Position numbers and translations under genes: made by a program | Notes under the pieces: model-generated | Databases searched by the model: none | The model's input: the letters and a program-made list of their open reading frames with translations, nothing else | Told to the model about the DNA's origin: nothing | Part shown: positions 4,410-12,475 of the stretch, piece after piece | Layout: each line of letters opens with the position of its first letter | Position numbering within the stretch: the stretch's first letter is position 1 | Virus record (IMG/VR): IMGVR_UViG_3300011116_000391 | Location: 1 to 34,782 of that record | DNA length: 34,782 nucleotides | Source: a virus | Reading direction: 5' to 3' (one strand)

Positions 4410-4669
4410 TGTTTGGTTATGTATTTTGAAATCAGATACCCTGCGAACATCGAAGTGAAGCACAAAGGTATTAATATTTGCAATGATATATTAAACATTA
4501 CGCCCTGCATTAGGCATATCCAAAAAGATAGACACTTAGTGCAATCGAATGGCTTTAACCTCTTGATGTTAAAAAACCATTTGAACGTCTGCACTACGTT
4601 GCTGACCGGGTAGATTGCCGCCGCTATGAACGGTGAAAGTATCAATATCCATTCACGATGAAGTTCCAT
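4406..4669 (-). CDS. Small membrane protein, DUF1360-like
   Basis: An 87-residue protein with about three hydrophobic segments (ILILSPFIAAAIYP; LSFWICLMQGVMFNI; LIPLCFTSMFAGYLI). Between the first two lies KPFDCTKCLSFW, resembling the L-x-C-x-x-C-x-x-F-W motif of DUF1360 membrane proteins found in phages and bacteria. Its function is unknown. It overlaps the end of the sigma/glycosyltransferase gene by 28 nt and is coupled to the CPSC protein by ATGA. It may sit in the inner membrane. Confidence 0.65.
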   Translation of the reverse strand: MELHREWILILSPFIAAAIYPVSNVVQTFKWFFNIKRLKPFDCTKCLSFWICLMQGVMFNISLQILIPLCFTSMFAGYLISKYITKQ

Positions 4670-6342
4670 AGCTGTACCCTTTTTTTGTTTACCGTGTCGA
4701 TGTGAAATTTTACTTTCACTGATTCATATAAGGCTTCGCCATACTCTTGTCGCATTGCAGGGGATTCAATAAGTCGCTTCATCTGTTTGTACCAGTCTTT
4801 GTGATTTTTGTGCGAATCGACCGCCACAAAGTTACTGCCGTTGTAATGCGGTGAATAAGGTAATATGTTTGAAACGATGCAAGGCTTTTTTTTGAACCCT
4901 GCTTCTGCAAGTTTCAATGGCGACTTACATCGGTTGAACTCATTGTCTTTTAGCGGAACAAGGCATATATCCATCTCATCAAGTATGTACCCATAGTTGA
5001 ATACGTCTTTGCCCCATATACGCTTGTAGCGTTCGTTAGTGGTTATTGCGGCAGGCTCAAACTTCTTTAACTCTGCTTTGTATTCATCACTGCAACACGT
5101 GTATCGGTCGGATAAGATTAGTTCGTATTTATATGATTCCTGCATCTGCATCGGCGTTGGTACTTCAATCAGTTTGCCATCTTCACCTATCTGCAAGTGC
5201 TTTTGACCATTGCTGAACCCCCCATATACAACCTGATACTTGCCTTTCATATTGTCATCTTGATGCAGTCTGTGTATGCAGTTGTCCATTAATGACAAGT
5301 CAGGTAAATGACAAATGCCGCCTTGCCACCCTACCCGAACCAATTCCGATGGCGTTGCCGTGCTTGACCATTGCGGCTGTTCAGGGTTGATTGCGTTCGG
5401 CAGTACTTCAATATTCGGGTTGTAGTTGCGTAGCTTGTCAGCAAGATATGTCGTTGTAGTCGTGATATAATCTGCCGCCCTTATCGTGTCAACAATCATA
5501 TTGCTGTATTCCTTTTTGAACGTATCATACAATACGTGGTCGTGTGGCAATATCCAATAGTCATCAATGTCATATAAGACCTTGCAACCTGCTTTCTTTG
5601 CCCGTTCAATGATTGTAACCGGATTCGTGAATCGGGATGCCTGCCTCGTGATTACCAACAACTGATAGTCTTTGAAAAACTGCTCCGTTGCATCTTCTAT
5701 GTTGTTGATTAGCGTGATGTCGATGTGCTTGTAGTTCTCGCCGATATGGTAGGCAGGAATAAGACTGCGATGGTATTCAACGCCGCCCTCTGGCACATTG
5801 CGAAGCATCAGTACCTTATACGGTTGATTGTTCATATATTCTTTGATTTGTTGTTTGCTTTTCTTTAGGCTGAAGTGTATAGCCGAAATGGGGATGCCTG
5901 TTTCTTTGTGCAGCTTTCGTATTGAACCTTCTGCGACATAGTGCTGCAATATGCGTGCATCGTAGGGGTATTTCCCTTTGCTTGATTGCTGCTTTTCTTG
6001 TTCTTTGATGTACTCTTCGAGCGTGGCTTCATCGTATTGATTTGTTTCGTCAAAGGTAATGATATTTGTATGCTTGTCGGTCAGTTCATCGTGCAGGTGC
6101 TTTCTGTATTTGTAGTTGAATGTGCTACGTGGACTATTCCACATTGTCATCGTGATGCGCACTGCAAACCACTTGATGTTGTTCGCTCCCTGCTGTTCGA
6201 TTGCGTTCAGCTTCTTTTTGTCGTATTCAAGCAGGCATATAAGTACTTCCTGATATAGGTCGTCAGTAAGGCAGTGGTTGTTCGTTATCTTTTTACAGAT
6301 TTTTTTTAGTTCATCGCCCGTGTATAAGTCTTGAAACGTCAT
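4642..6342 (-). CDS. Sigma-factor-like domain fused to a glycosyltransferase
   Basis: A single 566-residue frame with two unrelated parts. Residues 1-169 resemble a sigma-70-like protein: NNHCLTDDLYQEVLICLLEYD looks like region 2 and YVAEGSIRKLHKETGIPISAI (about 135-155) is a region-4-like helix-turn-helix. From Met170 (NNQPYKVLMLRNVPEGG) to the end the protein looks like a group 1 (GT-B) glycosyltransferase, with YDIDDYWILP, VLPNAINPEQP and a C-terminal CKSPLKLAEAGFKKKPCI segment typical of the donor-binding half. An internal start at Met170 (5835) could give the glycosyltransferase alone. It overlaps RuvC upstream by ATGA. Stand-alone versions of both halves are what I would expect; the fusion is unusual. 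Confidence 0.8.
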   Translation of the reverse strand: MTFQDLYTGDELKKICKKITNNHCLTDDLYQEVLICLLEYDKKKLNAIEQQGANNIKWFAVRITMTMWNSPRSTFNYKYRKHLHDELTDKHTNIITFDETNQYDEATLEEYIKEQEKQQSSKGKYPYDARILQHYVAEGSIRKLHKETGIPISAIHFSLKKSKQQIKEYMNNQPYKVLMLRNVPEGGVEYHRSLIPAYHIGENYKHIDITLINNIEDATEQFFKDYQLLVITRQASRFTNPVTIIERAKKAGCKVLYDIDDYWILPHDHVLYDTFKKEYSNMIVDTIRAADYITTTTTYLADKLRNYNPNIEVLPNAINPEQPQWSSTATPSELVRVGWQGGICHLPDLSLMDNCIHRLHQDDNMKGKYQVVYGGFSNGQKHLQIGEDGKLIEVPTPMQMQESYKYELILSDRYTCCSDEYKAELKKFEPAAITTNERYKRIWGKDVFNYGYILDEMDICLVPLKDNEFNRCKSPLKLAEAGFKKKPCIVSNILPYSPHYNGSNFVAVDSHKNHKDWYKQMKRLIESPAMRQEYGEALYESVKVKFHIDTVNKKRVQLWNFIVNGY

Positions 6343-7193: not shown

Positions 7194-9449
7194 TTATTGT
7201 GCGGTTATTGTTTTAGAAGTTGACCAACTGCCCTGCCCCGTTTGGCATCGTGATTGCGATTGCACTTCGTATGTCGTGCCACGTACTGCCCCAACGGTTA
7301 TCGTCAATCCATTTGTTGTGTTTTCTGTCCACGCCGTTGTTCCATTTGCCCTATATCGTATTGCGTAGAACTTGCTGCCGTTATTTACGAATGTAGTTGT
7401 TATCCTGCCATTGCTTGATGCAAGGCTGAAATCGGGTGCTGCTTGCGTGATTGCAGGTATTACCGATGTGATTTCGGATGCAGTCGATTTCGCCCCATTG
7501 GTACACGTTGCCGTAACGATGAAGCGCACCGATGCGTTCGCCTGAAAGTTAAACGATGCACTTGTTCCGGTGATGGTCTGTGAATTGATGCTGCCATTGT
7601 TTACGCTGTGCTGAACAAGGAATGATTGATATGTTGTGTTCGGGGTGATGTTTAACGTAGTGCCGTTGCAGGTGGTTGTTGCCGATATGGTCGGCTGTAA
7701 GCAACTTGGTGGCGGCGGCGGCGGTGCGCCCACATTCACATAGGCATAGGCATCTGAAGTGCATCCGTTTGCTGAAGTTACAAGTACGTTGTACCCCGTT
7801 GCGGTTGTTGGTGCAATTGTTATTGACTGCGTTGTCTGATTCGGATTAACCGTGTACCAATTATACGTGTATGGCGTTGTGCCGCCCGTTGCATTTGCCG
7901 TGATGACCGTTGATGTGCCTGATACAACCGATGCAGGTGCTTGTATTGTTGCGTTCAGTGCCGATGTGATGTTCACCGTTCTTGTGGTCGTGTTACTGCC
8001 ATTTGTATTCGTTGCCGTTAGCGTGATGGTTTTGCTGCCTGCTGTGGTGTAGGTAACGGTCGGATTGAACGCCGTTGACGTGGCTGGCGTGGCTCCTGCT
8101 CCGAAGTTCCAAGTGTATGTCGTCGCCTGCTGTGATTGGTTGTTCATCGTCAATGTGTTGCCTACACACGTTGAACTCGGTTGCGTAAAGTTTGCCACTG
8201 GCAATGATGTCGCCGATGCGAATGTTCCGGTCAGGTAATAACGACCAACACTACCATATCTTGTGTTTGCAGGTATGTTGCCGATTGGATTGGTGCTGTA
8301 ACAGAAATCGGTATAGTTCGGGTTGCCAGATGCAGATACCTGAATGAAGTATGTTCCGGCAGGTTGATTGATTAATGATATAGTTGCGTTCAGCTTGTTT
8401 ATGTTTGAGTCAATAGCGATGACCGTGCCTGCCGCATTGCGAATGATCAGCCGCACGTCAAGCGTTGCATATTGGTTATCTGATGTCGATTTGCTCAATG
8501 ACCACGGTCGGCAGTTAATGGTCATATTCTGCGCCGCCGTTGTCGTTACCCTGAAGTAGTCGTCATCGTATGTGATTGCAGGCAATGTTGCATACTTGAA
8601 TGATGTCAAACTGCCGTAGTTATGAATGATTAAACCTGAATCCGATATGGCATTGTTTACGATGTTGATTGCCTTTGCCGTTGCGGTCGTGCTGCCGATG
8701 TCGTCTGCTTTGAATGAAATTGCTTTGGAATGACCCGTAAAACCATCGCCGCCTAATCGCTCCAACGTCATTTCTGCAAAGTCATCTTGCCAATTCGGCA
8801 TATTGAAGCCGCCCGAAATTCTATACCCACACGGACCGCCGACTGGTCCTGCAACCCATTGTACGACATTCAAGCCATACCCCACACCCATCATCGGACA
8901 CCACGATGTTTCGCCCGTTCCCTTTCCGAAATGATATGCCCCTTGTGGTTGATTGGATGAATTATACTGTGCGTGATGCAATAAGTGCAACTGATGCCCT
9001 GCTTCGTGTACTGCTGCATTTGCCATTGCTTTCATACCGCCTGATGTTAAATTCGAAGTGAATACCCATCCCGGCTCATAAGCCTGCCATCCCCACGAAC
9101 CGATGAATGCAATTCCACCTACACCGCCATACCATTCACTTGTCGGGGTAAATACGATGCGCTGTTTCTTTGTTGCCAGTGCCGCATTATATACTGCAAG
9201 CGATGTGGTGACATTAAGGTCGAATATCGTGTAATGGTTGGCAATAATGTTAAAGCATTCCGTGATTTGTGCAGATGTGAAACCTGATGGGGCTGCGTTT
9301 ATCGTCGTTGCGCTCCAGTTCGGATTGTTCACCACTGCGCCATCGAAGTCAAGATATAAGACATTCTGCGAAGTTGGAAGCGATTGCAGTATCGGTACTT
9401 GTGCAGATAATGCTGAACATATCAGCATAAAGAGTAGTGTGATTCGCAT
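7194..9449 (-). CDS. Secreted metzincin-like zinc metalloprotease with PKD/Ig-like domains
   Basis: 751 residues. Residues 1-16 form a signal peptide (cut at ALSA|Q). Residues 25-230 are the protease: HEAGHQLHLLH at 148-158 gives three zinc histidines and the catalytic Glu149, and CPMMG (184-188) fits a metzincin Met-turn. The usual metzincin glycine at the eighth position of the zinc motif is His here. Residues 245-412 resemble a pre-peptidase C-terminal beta domain, 417-495 a PKD domain (YTWNFGAGA; GSKTITLTATN), then an Ig-like domain, a proline run near 580 and a fibronectin-like end. No type IX sorting tail is seen. Expected in a bacterial secretome rather than a phage; it may degrade surface or matrix protein, or be a virion or lysis factor. 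Confidence 0.85.
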   Translation of the reverse strand: MRITLLFMLICSALSAQVPILQSLPTSQNVLYLDFDGAVVNNPNWSATTINAAPSGFTSAQITECFNIIANHYTIFDLNVTTSLAVYNAALATKKQRIVFTPTSEWYGGVGGIAFIGSWGWQAYEPGWVFTSNLTSGGMKAMANAAVHEAGHQLHLLHHAQYNSSNQPQGAYHFGKGTGETSWCPMMGVGYGLNVVQWVAGPVGGPCGYRISGGFNMPNWQDDFAEMTLERLGGDGFTGHSKAISFKADDIGSTTATAKAINIVNNAISDSGLIIHNYGSLTSFKYATLPAITYDDDYFRVTTTAAQNMTINCRPWSLSKSTSDNQYATLDVRLIIRNAAGTVIAIDSNINKLNATISLINQPAGTYFIQVSASGNPNYTDFCYSTNPIGNIPANTRYGSVGRYYLTGTFASATSLPVANFTQPSSTCVGNTLTMNNQSQQATTYTWNFGAGATPATSTAFNPTVTYTTAGSKTITLTATNTNGSNTTTRTVNITSALNATIQAPASVVSGTSTVITANATGGTTPYTYNWYTVNPNQTTQSITIAPTTATGYNVLVTSANGCTSDAYAYVNVGAPPPPPPSCLQPTISATTTCNGTTLNITPNTTYQSFLVQHSVNNGSINSQTITGTSASFNFQANASVRFIVTATCTNGAKSTASEITSVIPAITQAAPDFSLASSNGRITTTFVNNGSKFYAIRYRANGTTAWTENTTNGLTITVGAVRGTTYEVQSQSRCQTGQGSWSTSKTITAQ

Positions 9450-10558: not shown

Positions 10559-11401
10559 TTATACCCTTAAATCTTTACCGTTCAGAATTATCACGTTGCA
10601 CATCTCTCGCAACCTGCTGCGTAATCGCTGACCATATCGCTGTTCAATCATATCGCCATTCAGGTTCGTGGTTATCCTCGTCTGCCTAAACAACCCCAAT
10701 TCGTGCCGCTTTACCAATGCAATCAGCATCGGCTCCTCAACCGCTTTTTGATACGGCTGCTGCTTTGCCGTTTCAAACCCGAAATCGTCAAAGAATATGT
10801 TCGGCTGTATTGGATTGGTCACGTACTGATTGAAGAAATAGGTCGAATCTTCTGCATAATAGTCTGCAACCAGTTCGCACGAATGCAGGTCGAACCTGCC
10901 CATCGGGGTGTCGCCTATTGCAGTCATTATCGCTGTCTTGCCCGTTCCGGTGCCGCCGATGAATAACAAACCCTTGTTAAGGTCGTAAAGTTCATTTTCA
11001 AATCCGAGCAAATAAGGAACTAAATTACGAACGATGTCTGCATTCTGCTCGGTTATCGCTTTTTCGGTTCGGGTGTTCGTGTTTATGATTTTATACAACC
11101 TGCCAAGTATCAGTCTGAATAGCTGCTCATCTGTAATTGCCAAAAAACGCTCTTCTTGTTTGATTTTTGCGAAGTATTCTTTCGCCTTGATGTCTGACTG
11201 CTTTTTTTCTTTTAATCGATTTATGACCTCTTTCTGTTCGATTTCAGTCAAAGGGTAGGTGCTATAATCAATAAAGTAGTTTACCGGCGGTGGAATCGTT
11301 GCCCGAACCTTGCCCTGCATCAGGTCTTGATGGTATTGTTTTTTCTTCGCCTGCAATATTGCGGCTCTGATTTCTTCGTCTGTTAGTGTAATTGTTTGCA
11401 T
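10559..11401 (-). CDS. DnaC/lambda P-type helicase loader ATPase
   Basis: 280 residues. The C-terminal AAA+ domain carries Walker A GGTGTGKT (149-156), Walker B NIFFDDFG (201-208) and an arginine-rich end RYGQRLRSRLREMCNVI, as in DnaC-like loaders. The N-terminal half is a charged helical region that would contact the helicase. The gene follows the O-like initiator after 2 nt, giving the O-P order of lambdoid phages. It would load the host replicative helicase at the origin lying in the upstream gene; no phage helicase or polymerase gene is present. Confidence 0.85.
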   Translation of the reverse strand: MQTITLTDEEIRAAILQAKKKQYHQDLMQGKVRATIPPPVNYFIDYSTYPLTEIEQKEVINRLKEKKQSDIKAKEYFAKIKQEERFLAITDEQLFRLILGRLYKIINTNTRTEKAITEQNADIVRNLVPYLLGFENELYDLNKGLLFIGGTGTGKTAIMTAIGDTPMGRFDLHSCELVADYYAEDSTYFFNQYVTNPIQPNIFFDDFGFETAKQQPYQKAVEEPMLIALVKRHELGLFRQTRITTNLNGDMIEQRYGQRLRSRLREMCNVIILNGKDLRV

Positions 11402-11403
11402 TG

Positions 11404-12153
11404 TTAAAGTTTTTGTGAGTAATCGGTTGTTTTGAATGAAGCCGTTGCGCCCAGTTCTTTTGCAGTATTTGCTGTATTTACCACAATATCGTTATTCCAA
11501 GATTCTTTGTTGAGATAAGTTAATGGGTTTTTTCTGTATTGAACATCAGGTGTTGCGGCTATGTATTTTTTCGTGTGCAAAAATATCTGCGCCTTTAGGT
11601 ATGCAGGTATTTTGTTCCATTTTTTTTCGCAGTCTTTTCTGTCAAGTTTCTTATTGTATAAATCCCACCATTCATCAAAAGTGTAAATATCAATGCGCTC
11701 ATTTGCCTTATCAGTATTATTATCTATAGTATTATTATCTATAGTATTATTATTAGGTAAACTTTGTTTACCGCCATGTGGTAAACTTTGTTTACCGCCA
11801 TCCGGTAAACTTTGTTTACTCCCTTGGTAAACTTTGTTTACCATCGGTAAACTTTCTTTACCTTGGTTATCCACATAATTTGACCACCATTTTTCAGTAG
11901 TTCTTAAGTGCTTTGTTGCATCATTTTTAATGATAAAACCATCAACTACTAATCGGTCAATCATTTTCATTAAACCCATTTTGCTGATGCCGATTTCTTT
12001 TGCAAGATTGTTTTTTGACATATAGCACCAGTTATCTAATTTATTGTCAGGGTTAGTATGCAATACATAAATCATATCCAATAGCACATATTCATTGCAG
12101 CTAAGGTTATGTTTCTTTCTAAAATTGTGCTGAATATTTGTGTAAACTAACAT
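11404..12153 (-). CDS. Replication initiation protein (lambda O-like), with origin inside the gene
   Basis: 249 residues. Residues 15-85 form a winged-helix-like domain (NNLAKEIGISKMGLMKMIDRLVVDGFI). Residues 98-135 contain GKQSLP repeats that are simply the translation of DNA iterons, followed by an Asn/Thr/Ile/Asp run (134-147) encoded by an AT-rich repeat. The C-terminal domain (YTFDEWWDLYNKK...DRKDCEKKW...KNPLTYLN) resembles the partner-binding part of phage replisome organisers. The layout, DNA-binding domain, origin repeats, then helicase-loader-binding domain, matches lambda O. It is preceded by a structured RNA leader. Confidence 0.8.
   Translation of the reverse strand: MLVYTNIQHNFRKKHNLSCNEYVLLDMIYVLHTNPDNKLDNWCYMSKNNLAKEIGISKMGLMKMIDRLVVDGFIIKNDATKHLRTTEKWWSNYVDNQGKESLPMVNKVYQGSKQSLPDGGKQSLPHGGKQSLPNNNTIDNNTIDNNTDKANERIDIYTFDEWWDLYNKKLDRKDCEKKWNKIPAYLKAQIFLHTKKYIAATPDVQYRKNPLTYLNKESWNNDIVVNTANTAKELGATASFKTTDYSQKL
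11715..11753. repeat. AT-rich 15-bp direct repeats, probable DNA unwinding element
   Basis: TATTATTATCTATAG occurs twice in tandem (11715-11729, 11730-11744), followed by a partial third copy. The stretch is almost entirely A/T and touches the iteron block. It sits where the AT-rich unwinding region lies in lambda ori. Confidence 0.7.
11756..11862. repeat. Five palindromic iterons: phage replication origin
   Basis: The 17-bp palindrome GGTAAACTTTGTTTACC starts at 11756, 11780 and 11826 (perfect), 11804 (last base T) and 11846 (one changed base). Spacing is 24, 24, 22 and 20 bp, about two helical turns, so bound dimers would lie on roughly one face. They lie inside the initiator gene and next to the AT-rich repeats, as in lambda ori, and are the expected binding sites of its winged-helix domain. 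Confidence 0.85.
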
Positions 12154-12243
12154 AAAATAAAAATCCCAAATCGGGTTCGGCTGTACGGAGCCTCCCCCAA
12201 CTTGGGATTGTTGATGTTTTTAAGTGATGTCCGTACACATCAT
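12152..12243 (-). ncRNA. Two-hairpin RNA with complementary loops, 5' leader of the replication gene
   Basis: Read on the minus strand. Hairpin A: TGATGT, loop GTACGG, ACATCA (12242-12225). Hairpin B: outer stem AATCCCAA/TTGGGATT (12209-12202 with 12169-12162), then GTT/GAT pairing as GU-UA-UG, GGG/CCC, a GGA/GAA purine internal loop, GGCT/AGCC and loop CCGTAC (12188-12183). The two 6-nt loops are perfect complements, so a kissing interaction is likely. The wobble pairs and G-A pairs form only on the minus strand, favouring that strand as the RNA. The T-rich stretch TTTTTATTTT runs into the ATG of the replication gene, so hairpin B could also act as a terminator. Confidence 0.65.
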
Positions 12244-12248
12244 TTTTA

Positions 12249-12280
12249 CAAAATTACTAAATTTCTCTGAACGTGTAAAA
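12249..12280 (-). promoter_or_regulatory. Possible promoter of the structured leader and replication genes
   Basis: TAATTTTG (12256-12249) is a perfect match to the Bacteroidota -7 box TAnnTTTG. A TTTT about 20 nt upstream is a weak match to the -33 TTTG. A transcript would begin within a few bases of hairpin A, which fits a dedicated leader RNA. Confidence 0.45.
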
Positions 12281-12475
12281 TACTTTATAATCAGCATCGA
12301 AGTTCCTGCGTGCGAACTTGCATCTGCTCAAATACTTATCGAACTCTTTCAAATTTCGCTTGCCGAATACAAAATGGTCAGTGCGATATATCTTGCCGCC
12401 TGCCTTTAGGAACCCATACACAATGCGATCACGCCATTTCTCCTGCTCAACCTCAAATTCATACGGCTTCATCAT
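12257..12475 (-). CDS. Unknown 72-residue protein
   Basis: Small, very basic and aromatic protein (EKWRDRIVYGFLKAGGKIYR; KFARRNFDADYKVFYTF). No family recognised, but the charge would suit nucleic-acid binding. It overlaps the upstream gene by 4 nt (ATGA) and ends just before the leader RNA of the replication gene. Confidence 0.55.
   Translation of the reverse strand: MMKPYEFEVEQEKWRDRIVYGFLKAGGKIYRTDHFVFGKRNLKEFDKYLSRCKFARRNFDADYKVFYTFREI

Follow-up and report, generated by a model that had tools for sequence, protein, structure and literature searches.

The window analysed here, a stretch of 34,782 nucleotides, is a virus record from IMG/VR in which a candidate RNA element on the minus strand (12154-12256) leads into the ATG, at position 12153, of a gene for replication initiation (hereafter rep). 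The gene that follows in the presumed operon encodes a DnaC-like helicase loader (Table 1). The product of rep (11404-12153) has no Pfam match. Homologues of the short ORF on the other side of the element were detected by tblastn in L008-L011, where they lie ahead of the leaders. Within rep, five iteron-like copies related to GGTAAACTTTGTTTACC (window 11756-11869, spacing 20-24 nt) adjoin two tandem copies of AGTATTATTATCTAT (window 11713-11742). By analogy, the iteron-like copies possibly mark an origin inside the initiator gene, an arrangement for which lambda O provides a comparison. Elsewhere the window encodes a 751-aa protein with a PKD domain (7194-9449) and a glycosyltransferase (phrog_7162, 4642-6342).

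Table 1. Features of the RNA element and the neighbouring genes in the window
Feature	Position	Strand	Basis
Replication initiation gene, directly behind the RNA	11404-12153	minus	phrog_270, E 7.7e-22
DnaC-like helicase loader, next gene of the presumed operon	10559-11401	minus	phrog_50, E 2.3e-14
72-aa ORF upstream; its stop codon immediately precedes the box	12257-12475	minus	
Promoter-like box TAATTTTG (TAnnTTTG, Bacteroidota -7-like)	12249-12256	minus	sequence
Hairpin A, TGATGT-GTACGG-ACATCA, 6 bp, near the expected transcript 5' end	12225-12242	minus	fold and scan
Kissing loop A, GTACGG	12231-12236	minus	exact complement of 12183-12188
Linker between A and B, 15 nt	12210-12224	minus	coordinates
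Hairpin B, terminator-like, about 20 levels tall, tandem G-A interior loop	12162-12209	minus	fold and scan
Kissing loop B, CCGTAC	12183-12188	minus	scan
T-rich run between hairpin B and the start codon, overlapping the last base pairs of B	12154-12163	minus	

An earlier sequence-only reading had described this site as a kissing-loop RNA in the leader of the replication gene, behind its own promoter-like box. The two loops are exact complements, the gene is a phrog_270 member, and the box, which that reading had placed just before hairpin A, is separated from it by 6 nt. The box conforms to TAnnTTTG, which we take to be the Bacteroidota promoter consensus, and inspection by eye reveals no clear TTG -33 element ahead of it in the window. 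Complementarity between the loops grows to 8 nt (TGTACGGA/TCCGTACA) once the closing pair of A opens, and 29 nt separate loop B from the rep ATG. One of the alternative folds proposed earlier, in which CCCAA folds back on the directly adjacent TTGGG, is impossible, as its loop would be 1 nt. The predicted fold of the window RNA has a free energy of -35 kcal/mol (z -5.4), and none of 200 shuffles was equally stable. When the window was scanned for a box, kissing hairpins and a T-run, the RNA site received the top score on the minus strand (44.0, against a plus-strand best of 27.1), while 200 shuffled windows reached a median of 29.5 and a best of 40.7 in the same scan.

The same RNA is carried by a sister contig of the window (L001; the window itself is L002). 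Through relatives of the exonuclease we reached phages in which an analogous leader precedes a rep gene without a tblastn connection to that of the window, and this second rep gene, used as a query, led to further leaders. Of 60 distinct rep-upstream regions, 40 contain a T-run and a pair of hairpins whose loops are complementary over 6 nt or more (one of the 40, L025, looks like chance), compared with 3 of 2400 shuffled ones. A second scan was positive for 59 of 174 distinct rep-upstream regions, likely chance cases among them (L104, L109, L128 and L180), and negative for 115. At many of the scanner-negative loci rep sits inside an operon, and at about 15-20 of them the RNA lies 300-600 nt further up, at the operon head; at some other scanner-negative rep loci no RNA was seen further up either.

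Requiring the box in a scan of 1.24 Mb of loci yielded 70 distinct matches, 66 of them on the plus strand of the loci. As the same scan gave 30 matches in 3.71 Mb of shuffled sequence, about 10 of the 70 are expected by chance. Five of the 70 were dropped, namely L002 (the window, for which its sister L001 stands in) and the off-site, chance-like L016, L129, L149 and L190. Fourteen leaders recognised by eye or in later scans were added (L047, L055, L080, L048, L200, L213, L015, the first copies in L010 and L008, P12002L, Gundel_1, 11b, B40-8 and BF702P1). The final set comprises 79 leaders with 70 distinct RNAs and 36 different kissing strings, some of which overlap one another (e.g. GTAGGAT and GTAGGATTC), and most of its members were collected with a scanner that requires the T-run.

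Most scanner-positive relatives have a TAnnTTTG-type box shortly before hairpin A, a feature that one of the scans required; the distance from box end to kissing A is 8-23 nt (median 17). In 36 representatives the spacing between kissing A and kissing B is 38-79 nt (median 42.5), and in all 36 the T-run follows kissing B at 12-24 nt, a range that reflects a count beginning at 12 nt and scans that demanded a T-run. The commonest loop size among 76 parsed leaders is 7 nt for both loop A (42 leaders) and loop B (37 leaders), and hairpin B keeps a height of 19-21 levels in 46 of the 57 rows listed, despite differing pairs. Hairpin A remained unparsed under the folding constraint in the first copies of L010 and L008 and in 11b, and is thus less regular there. 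A divergent subfamily upstream of rep (L048, L200, L213 and L226) has the kiss TGGAACC/GGTTCCA and long branched hairpins, with a spacing of 79 nt between kissing A and B in L048.

The T-run is followed by an ATG after about 5-30 nt in the relatives, and the genes behind the RNA include rep, small ORFs, HNH-like ORFs, a ParB-methyltransferase-like gene and Rha (the HNH and ParB names come from reading the translations, Rha from the annotation of the record). These differences in downstream genes indicate that the RNA belongs to the operon start rather than to one gene. ORFs that resemble HNH homing endonucleases in translation lie between the RNA and rep in L186 (1480-2004) and L191 (999-1511).

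Because the scanner selects for complementarity, its matches cannot prove the kiss, and we relied on three tests free of such selection: covariation in an alignment, a covariance model and an open-loop pattern. The alignment, A2, consists of 26 rows, all scanner matches, whose columns were placed by MAFFT without knowledge of the kiss. In its kissing columns 89.5% of cells are paired (67.8% when shuffled), 37 cells carry double changes (13.6 shuffled) and the covariation score is 0.519 (0.185 shuffled); when the columns are slid by 1-3 positions, 28-46% of cells are paired and scores are at most 0.190. Of the five measures of covariation computed for the kiss by itself, two lie within reach of the shuffles and do not stand out, namely the number of pairs with a double change (5 versus 3.6, reached in 65 of 500 shuffles) and the number of further pair types (12 versus 10.7, reached in 138 of 500). 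Changes on both sides occur at 5 of 5 pairs of the A stem, 5 of 7 of the kiss and 12 of 13 of the B stem.

The covariance model contains pairs in hairpin B alone and no term for the kiss. It gave 46 matches in 99 sources, of which 22 are distinct and not identical to any training row. Complementarity of at least 6 nt was found in 20 of these 22, compared with 22% of mismatched partners, and of at least 7 nt in 16, compared with 9%. Among the 20, the 8-mer of L050 stems from its B stem and the 6-mer of L188 differs from the loop pair seen earlier (GGGGAG/CTCCCC). One of the two failures, L195, keeps by eye a 6-bp kiss with one G-U pair, and the other, L099, has none.

The open-loop pattern, one hairpin-A stem with four loop positions left free, was run on viral contigs and gave 114 matches; 54 have a box upstream and represent 28 distinct sequences. 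An exact complement of the sequence's own loop lies downstream in 27 of these 28 and in 0 of 456 cross-controls. The 27, which include contigs already in the leader set and count close relatives separately, fall into four loop types (15, 10, 1 and 1). Of 47 distinct matches without a box, none has the loop complement (cross-control 14 of 2138). All 4 matches to a second open-loop pattern, in which the gap was set wrongly, were attributed to chance.

Compensatory changes in homologous leaders, on which the sequence-only reading had made its interpretation depend, are present in A2, in the covariance-model matches and in the open-loop matches. Such comparative evidence shows that the A and B loops are kept complementary by compensatory change, as a predicted kissing helix of 6-9 bp. 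The specificity for one strand that had been noted at the window extends to the relatives: the sense alignment folds at -8.67 kcal/mol and the antisense one at -1.52, and 32 of 36 representatives have the more stable fold on the sense strand. In 550 non-independent homologue comparisons, changed B-stem pairs became Watson-Crick 1809 times, G-U 831 times, A-C 243 times and other combinations 1662 times. The strand asymmetry thus holds in the family, as would be expected of an element that acts as RNA rather than as DNA.

Between relatives that diverge by 10-20% elsewhere, differences amount to 3-4% in the kissing letters, compared with 17-22% in the 12-nt B flanks and 3-5% in the A stem; many pairs in the low-divergence bins come from one clade. 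The kissing letters thus evolve more slowly, on average, than the B stem. This is not in favour of immunity loops that diversify fast, and the idea of hypervariable loops as specificity codes finds no average support in this comparison. The kiss changed more than the B flanks in 12 of the 32 relative pairs listed with less than 30% divergence and a changed kiss (L197/L220, L031/L221, L047/L055, L008/L009 and others). Linker length and helix height are negatively correlated (Spearman -0.48), opposite to the simple prediction for a kiss in cis, because folded outer A stems eat into the linker. In L029, L039, L042, L159 and L162 such folded stems leave linkers of 0-4 nt, so that the outer A stem and a kiss in cis may be mutually exclusive, which could constitute a switch. 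L010 (5267-5371 and 6985-7090) and L008 (about 5840-5950 and 7610-7717) each carry the RNA twice, with different, non-matching loops, the first copy in each preceding an inserted ParB-methyltransferase-like gene. A box of the TAnnTT[TC]G promoter type on the antisense strand was found in only 9 of the 79 leaders.

Several named phages carry the RNA. In Polaribacter phages P12002L and P12002S (kiss GGTCGTAG/CTACGACC) and in Tenacibaculum phage Gundel_1 (GTAGGATTC/GAATCCTAC) it precedes a gene annotated as primosomal protein, and in Flavobacterium phage 11b (CGGGCAGG/CCTGCCCG) a small ORF. Bacteroides phages B40-8 and BF702P1 share the kiss CCGCCAA/TTGGCGG; in B40-8 the box is poorer and the RNA is followed by a Rha-type regulator, and in BF702P1 it is followed by a hypothetical gene. 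The named-phage scan gave 18 matches in 11 loci, of which four were accepted (P12002L, P12002S, 11b and B40-8) and the remaining 14, lower-scoring at 27-31, were judged by eye to be chance. The Gundel_1 leader was missed by the scan, recognised by eye and then matched by the covariance model (E 0.034). No convincing site was found in the parts covered, for most records, of RAP44, 6H, P12024L, phi18:1, phi19:1 and MT837034, nor in short stretches of B124-14, VA7, Barc2635, vB_BfrS_23 and BF695P2, and BF766P1, 90% identical over the B40-8 leader region, gave no scanner match. In five related B. fragilis phages a promoter-like box is present but the RNA is missing, which indicates that the RNA is dispensable in some phages. 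For the metagenomic contigs, the label Bacteroidota derives from the box, with its presumed consensus, and from these named phages.

Two scans of 64 loci from bacterial genomes, several labelled Clostridia, revealed no convincing case. Model R1 gave three weak matches in three of 9 genomes, at loci where the scan gave no site, and 0 matches in 199 genomes of one family under strict filters and without a positive control, a result that is not proof of absence. Among 35 virus records it matched 19, with one copy each; R1 misses subfamilies, as the records of L009, L010, L060 and L067 hold the RNA and were unmatched.

The window, 20 loci and 11 further loci including named phages contain no match above the gathering threshold of Rfam 15, in agreement with the failure of the sequence-only reading to recognise a known family; of the permissive Rfam scans, one gave three sub-threshold matches and another none. 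The guanidine-II (mini-ykkC) riboswitch consists of two hairpins with kissing loops of the fixed sequence ACGR, unlike the 36 different kissing strings found here. The c4 antisense RNA is represented in the Rfam library scanned (RF01695; PMC2864571) and has no match in the window or the 31 loci. No prior description of this RNA appeared in the titles and abstract openings of the open-access journal papers listed, which for several topics were the best-ranked 8-20. Within these searches, and as judged by comparative analysis, this is a real, widespread and undescribed structured RNA.

As for its function, the layout consists of a box, a 5' hairpin, a terminator-like hairpin with a T-run about 40 nt later and, behind these, the first gene of an operon for replication or regulation. 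Box, 5' hairpin and terminator-like hairpin directly before an operon are the layout of an attenuator, and we lean, with modest confidence, towards the view that this conserved phage leader RNA of about 95 nt works as a transcription attenuator, the most likely and best-fitting reading among those offered. Transcription would start at the TAnnTTTG box and hairpin B would be an intrinsic terminator, in which case most transcripts would stop there as a short RNA. The A-B kiss would form while B leaves the polymerase and would set, up or down, the share of read-through into the operon; a competitor probably disrupts or strengthens it, and this could be a factor of phage or host or else the identical short RNA made by other copies of the phage. 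The kissing helix leaves the B stem intact, so that its effect on termination is not obvious. We know of no other attenuator in which a 5' hairpin kisses the tip of its own transcript's terminator. A trp-like leader peptide was considered and rejected: by eye, short frames starting from hairpin A are present in L009, L027 and L159, whereas in L168, L175 and L042 they end early or are absent.

The pT181-type attenuator likewise precedes a replication gene, in the Staphylococcus rep leader. According to PMC4878617, its leader combines a 5' hairpin, kissing between loops and an intrinsic terminator. The present RNA resembles it in this, the window and its relatives having a terminator-like hairpin with a T-run before rep. 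In pT181, however, the kiss is made with an antisense RNA and works via anti-terminator pairing, whereas here both loops are in one transcript, and pT181 has an antisense countertranscript whereas the antisense box is rare in our leaders. Attenuation was among the functions proposed by the sequence-only reading, and it is supported by the terminator-like B and the T-run before the operon. Copy control, also proposed there, may apply, since complementary loops allow it, but antisense boxes are few and the loops are not fast-evolving on average. Overall, the observation made earlier is confirmed and its interpretation partly supported.

Alternatively, the terminated short RNA might recognise its own kind in trans, kissing nascent leaders of the same specificity and so shutting the replication operon, as copy control or superinfection immunity by analogy with plasmid antisense systems or the P4 CI RNA; we regard this as rather unlikely. 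Any two copies with identical loops can pair, L008 and L010 each hold two copies with non-matching loops, and the 0-4 nt linkers of a few members would, from their geometry, be too short for a cis kiss while the outer stem is formed. The pairs of relatives whose kiss has diverged further than the B stem beside it also suit this explanation, as does the precedent of the P4 CI RNA, in which, according to PMC4825925, RNA pairing in a phage leader controls premature termination before replication genes. In the leaders studied here, too, predicted RNA pairing lies inside the leader of a replication operon. The P4 RNA, however, is processed and pairs with two separate leader sequences (PMC4825925), whereas in the present case a single short RNA supplies both of the pairing hairpin loops, one of them the tip of the terminator-like hairpin. 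Against recognition in trans are the slower average change of the kissing letters relative to the flanking B stem at low divergence, the scarcity of antisense boxes, the single copy in each record matched by R1 (with the subfamilies that R1 misses) and the cis partner, which would always be nearer than one in trans. It is improbable that the element is instead a stand-alone phage small RNA that ends at B and acts on a target in trans, its kiss building or protecting the fold and the downstream gene being reached by leak-through. A promoter-like box, compact fold and T-run are typical of a small RNA gene, but the place ahead of the operon start is kept across different head genes, and the two loops would occupy one another, so that no free target sequence is obvious.

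IncB/IncI-alpha plasmids use a translational system with an antisense RNA and have no terminator at that place. There, a 5' hairpin loop pairs with a loop close to the rep start (PMC10724649), as it could in the window. A pseudoknot of this type, in which the kiss beside the start codon would open or shut ribosome loading, is nevertheless very unlikely here: the distance from T-run to ATG varies, the leader reading frame that such plasmids couple to rep seems by eye to have no conserved counterpart, short upstream frames being dissimilar, prematurely ended or lacking, hairpin B is closed by a terminator-like T-run, and a conserved antisense box is absent. We give almost no credence to a put-like RNA, proposed in the sequence-only reading, that would modify RNA polymerase to pass B and later terminators. 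HK022 put comprises two stem-loops and acts via the transcript, putL being found shortly behind a phage early promoter (PMC9378689), and here too there are two hairpins immediately behind a phage promoter-like box. That paper, however, mentions neither kissing nor a pseudoknot for put, and put acts on RNA polymerase and is itself no terminator. It therefore fits less well with the loop-loop covariation, the terminator-like B and loop letters that vary freely provided that pairing stays.

The attenuator and trans recognition could be combined into protein-free control across the phylum, in which the leader kisses its own terminator in cis or sister copies in trans, expression of the replication genes depends on phage copy number or on a resident phage, and the loops serve as exchangeable specificity codes; we hold this broader proposal to be unlikely. 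What the element does look like is a so far undescribed RNA switch that governs the start of viral replication. Such an RNA family would be absent from Rfam 15 and present in phages of at least Flavobacterium, Polaribacter, Tenacibaculum and Bacteroides, so that early gene control in Bacteroidota phages becomes directly testable in cultured phages, and the naturally matched loop pairs could serve as orthogonal regulators. PMC8040213 reports 3161 candidate RNAs, of which 28 are most often located close to domains of integrase, sortase or phage type, and a gut member of the present RNA may be among those candidates.
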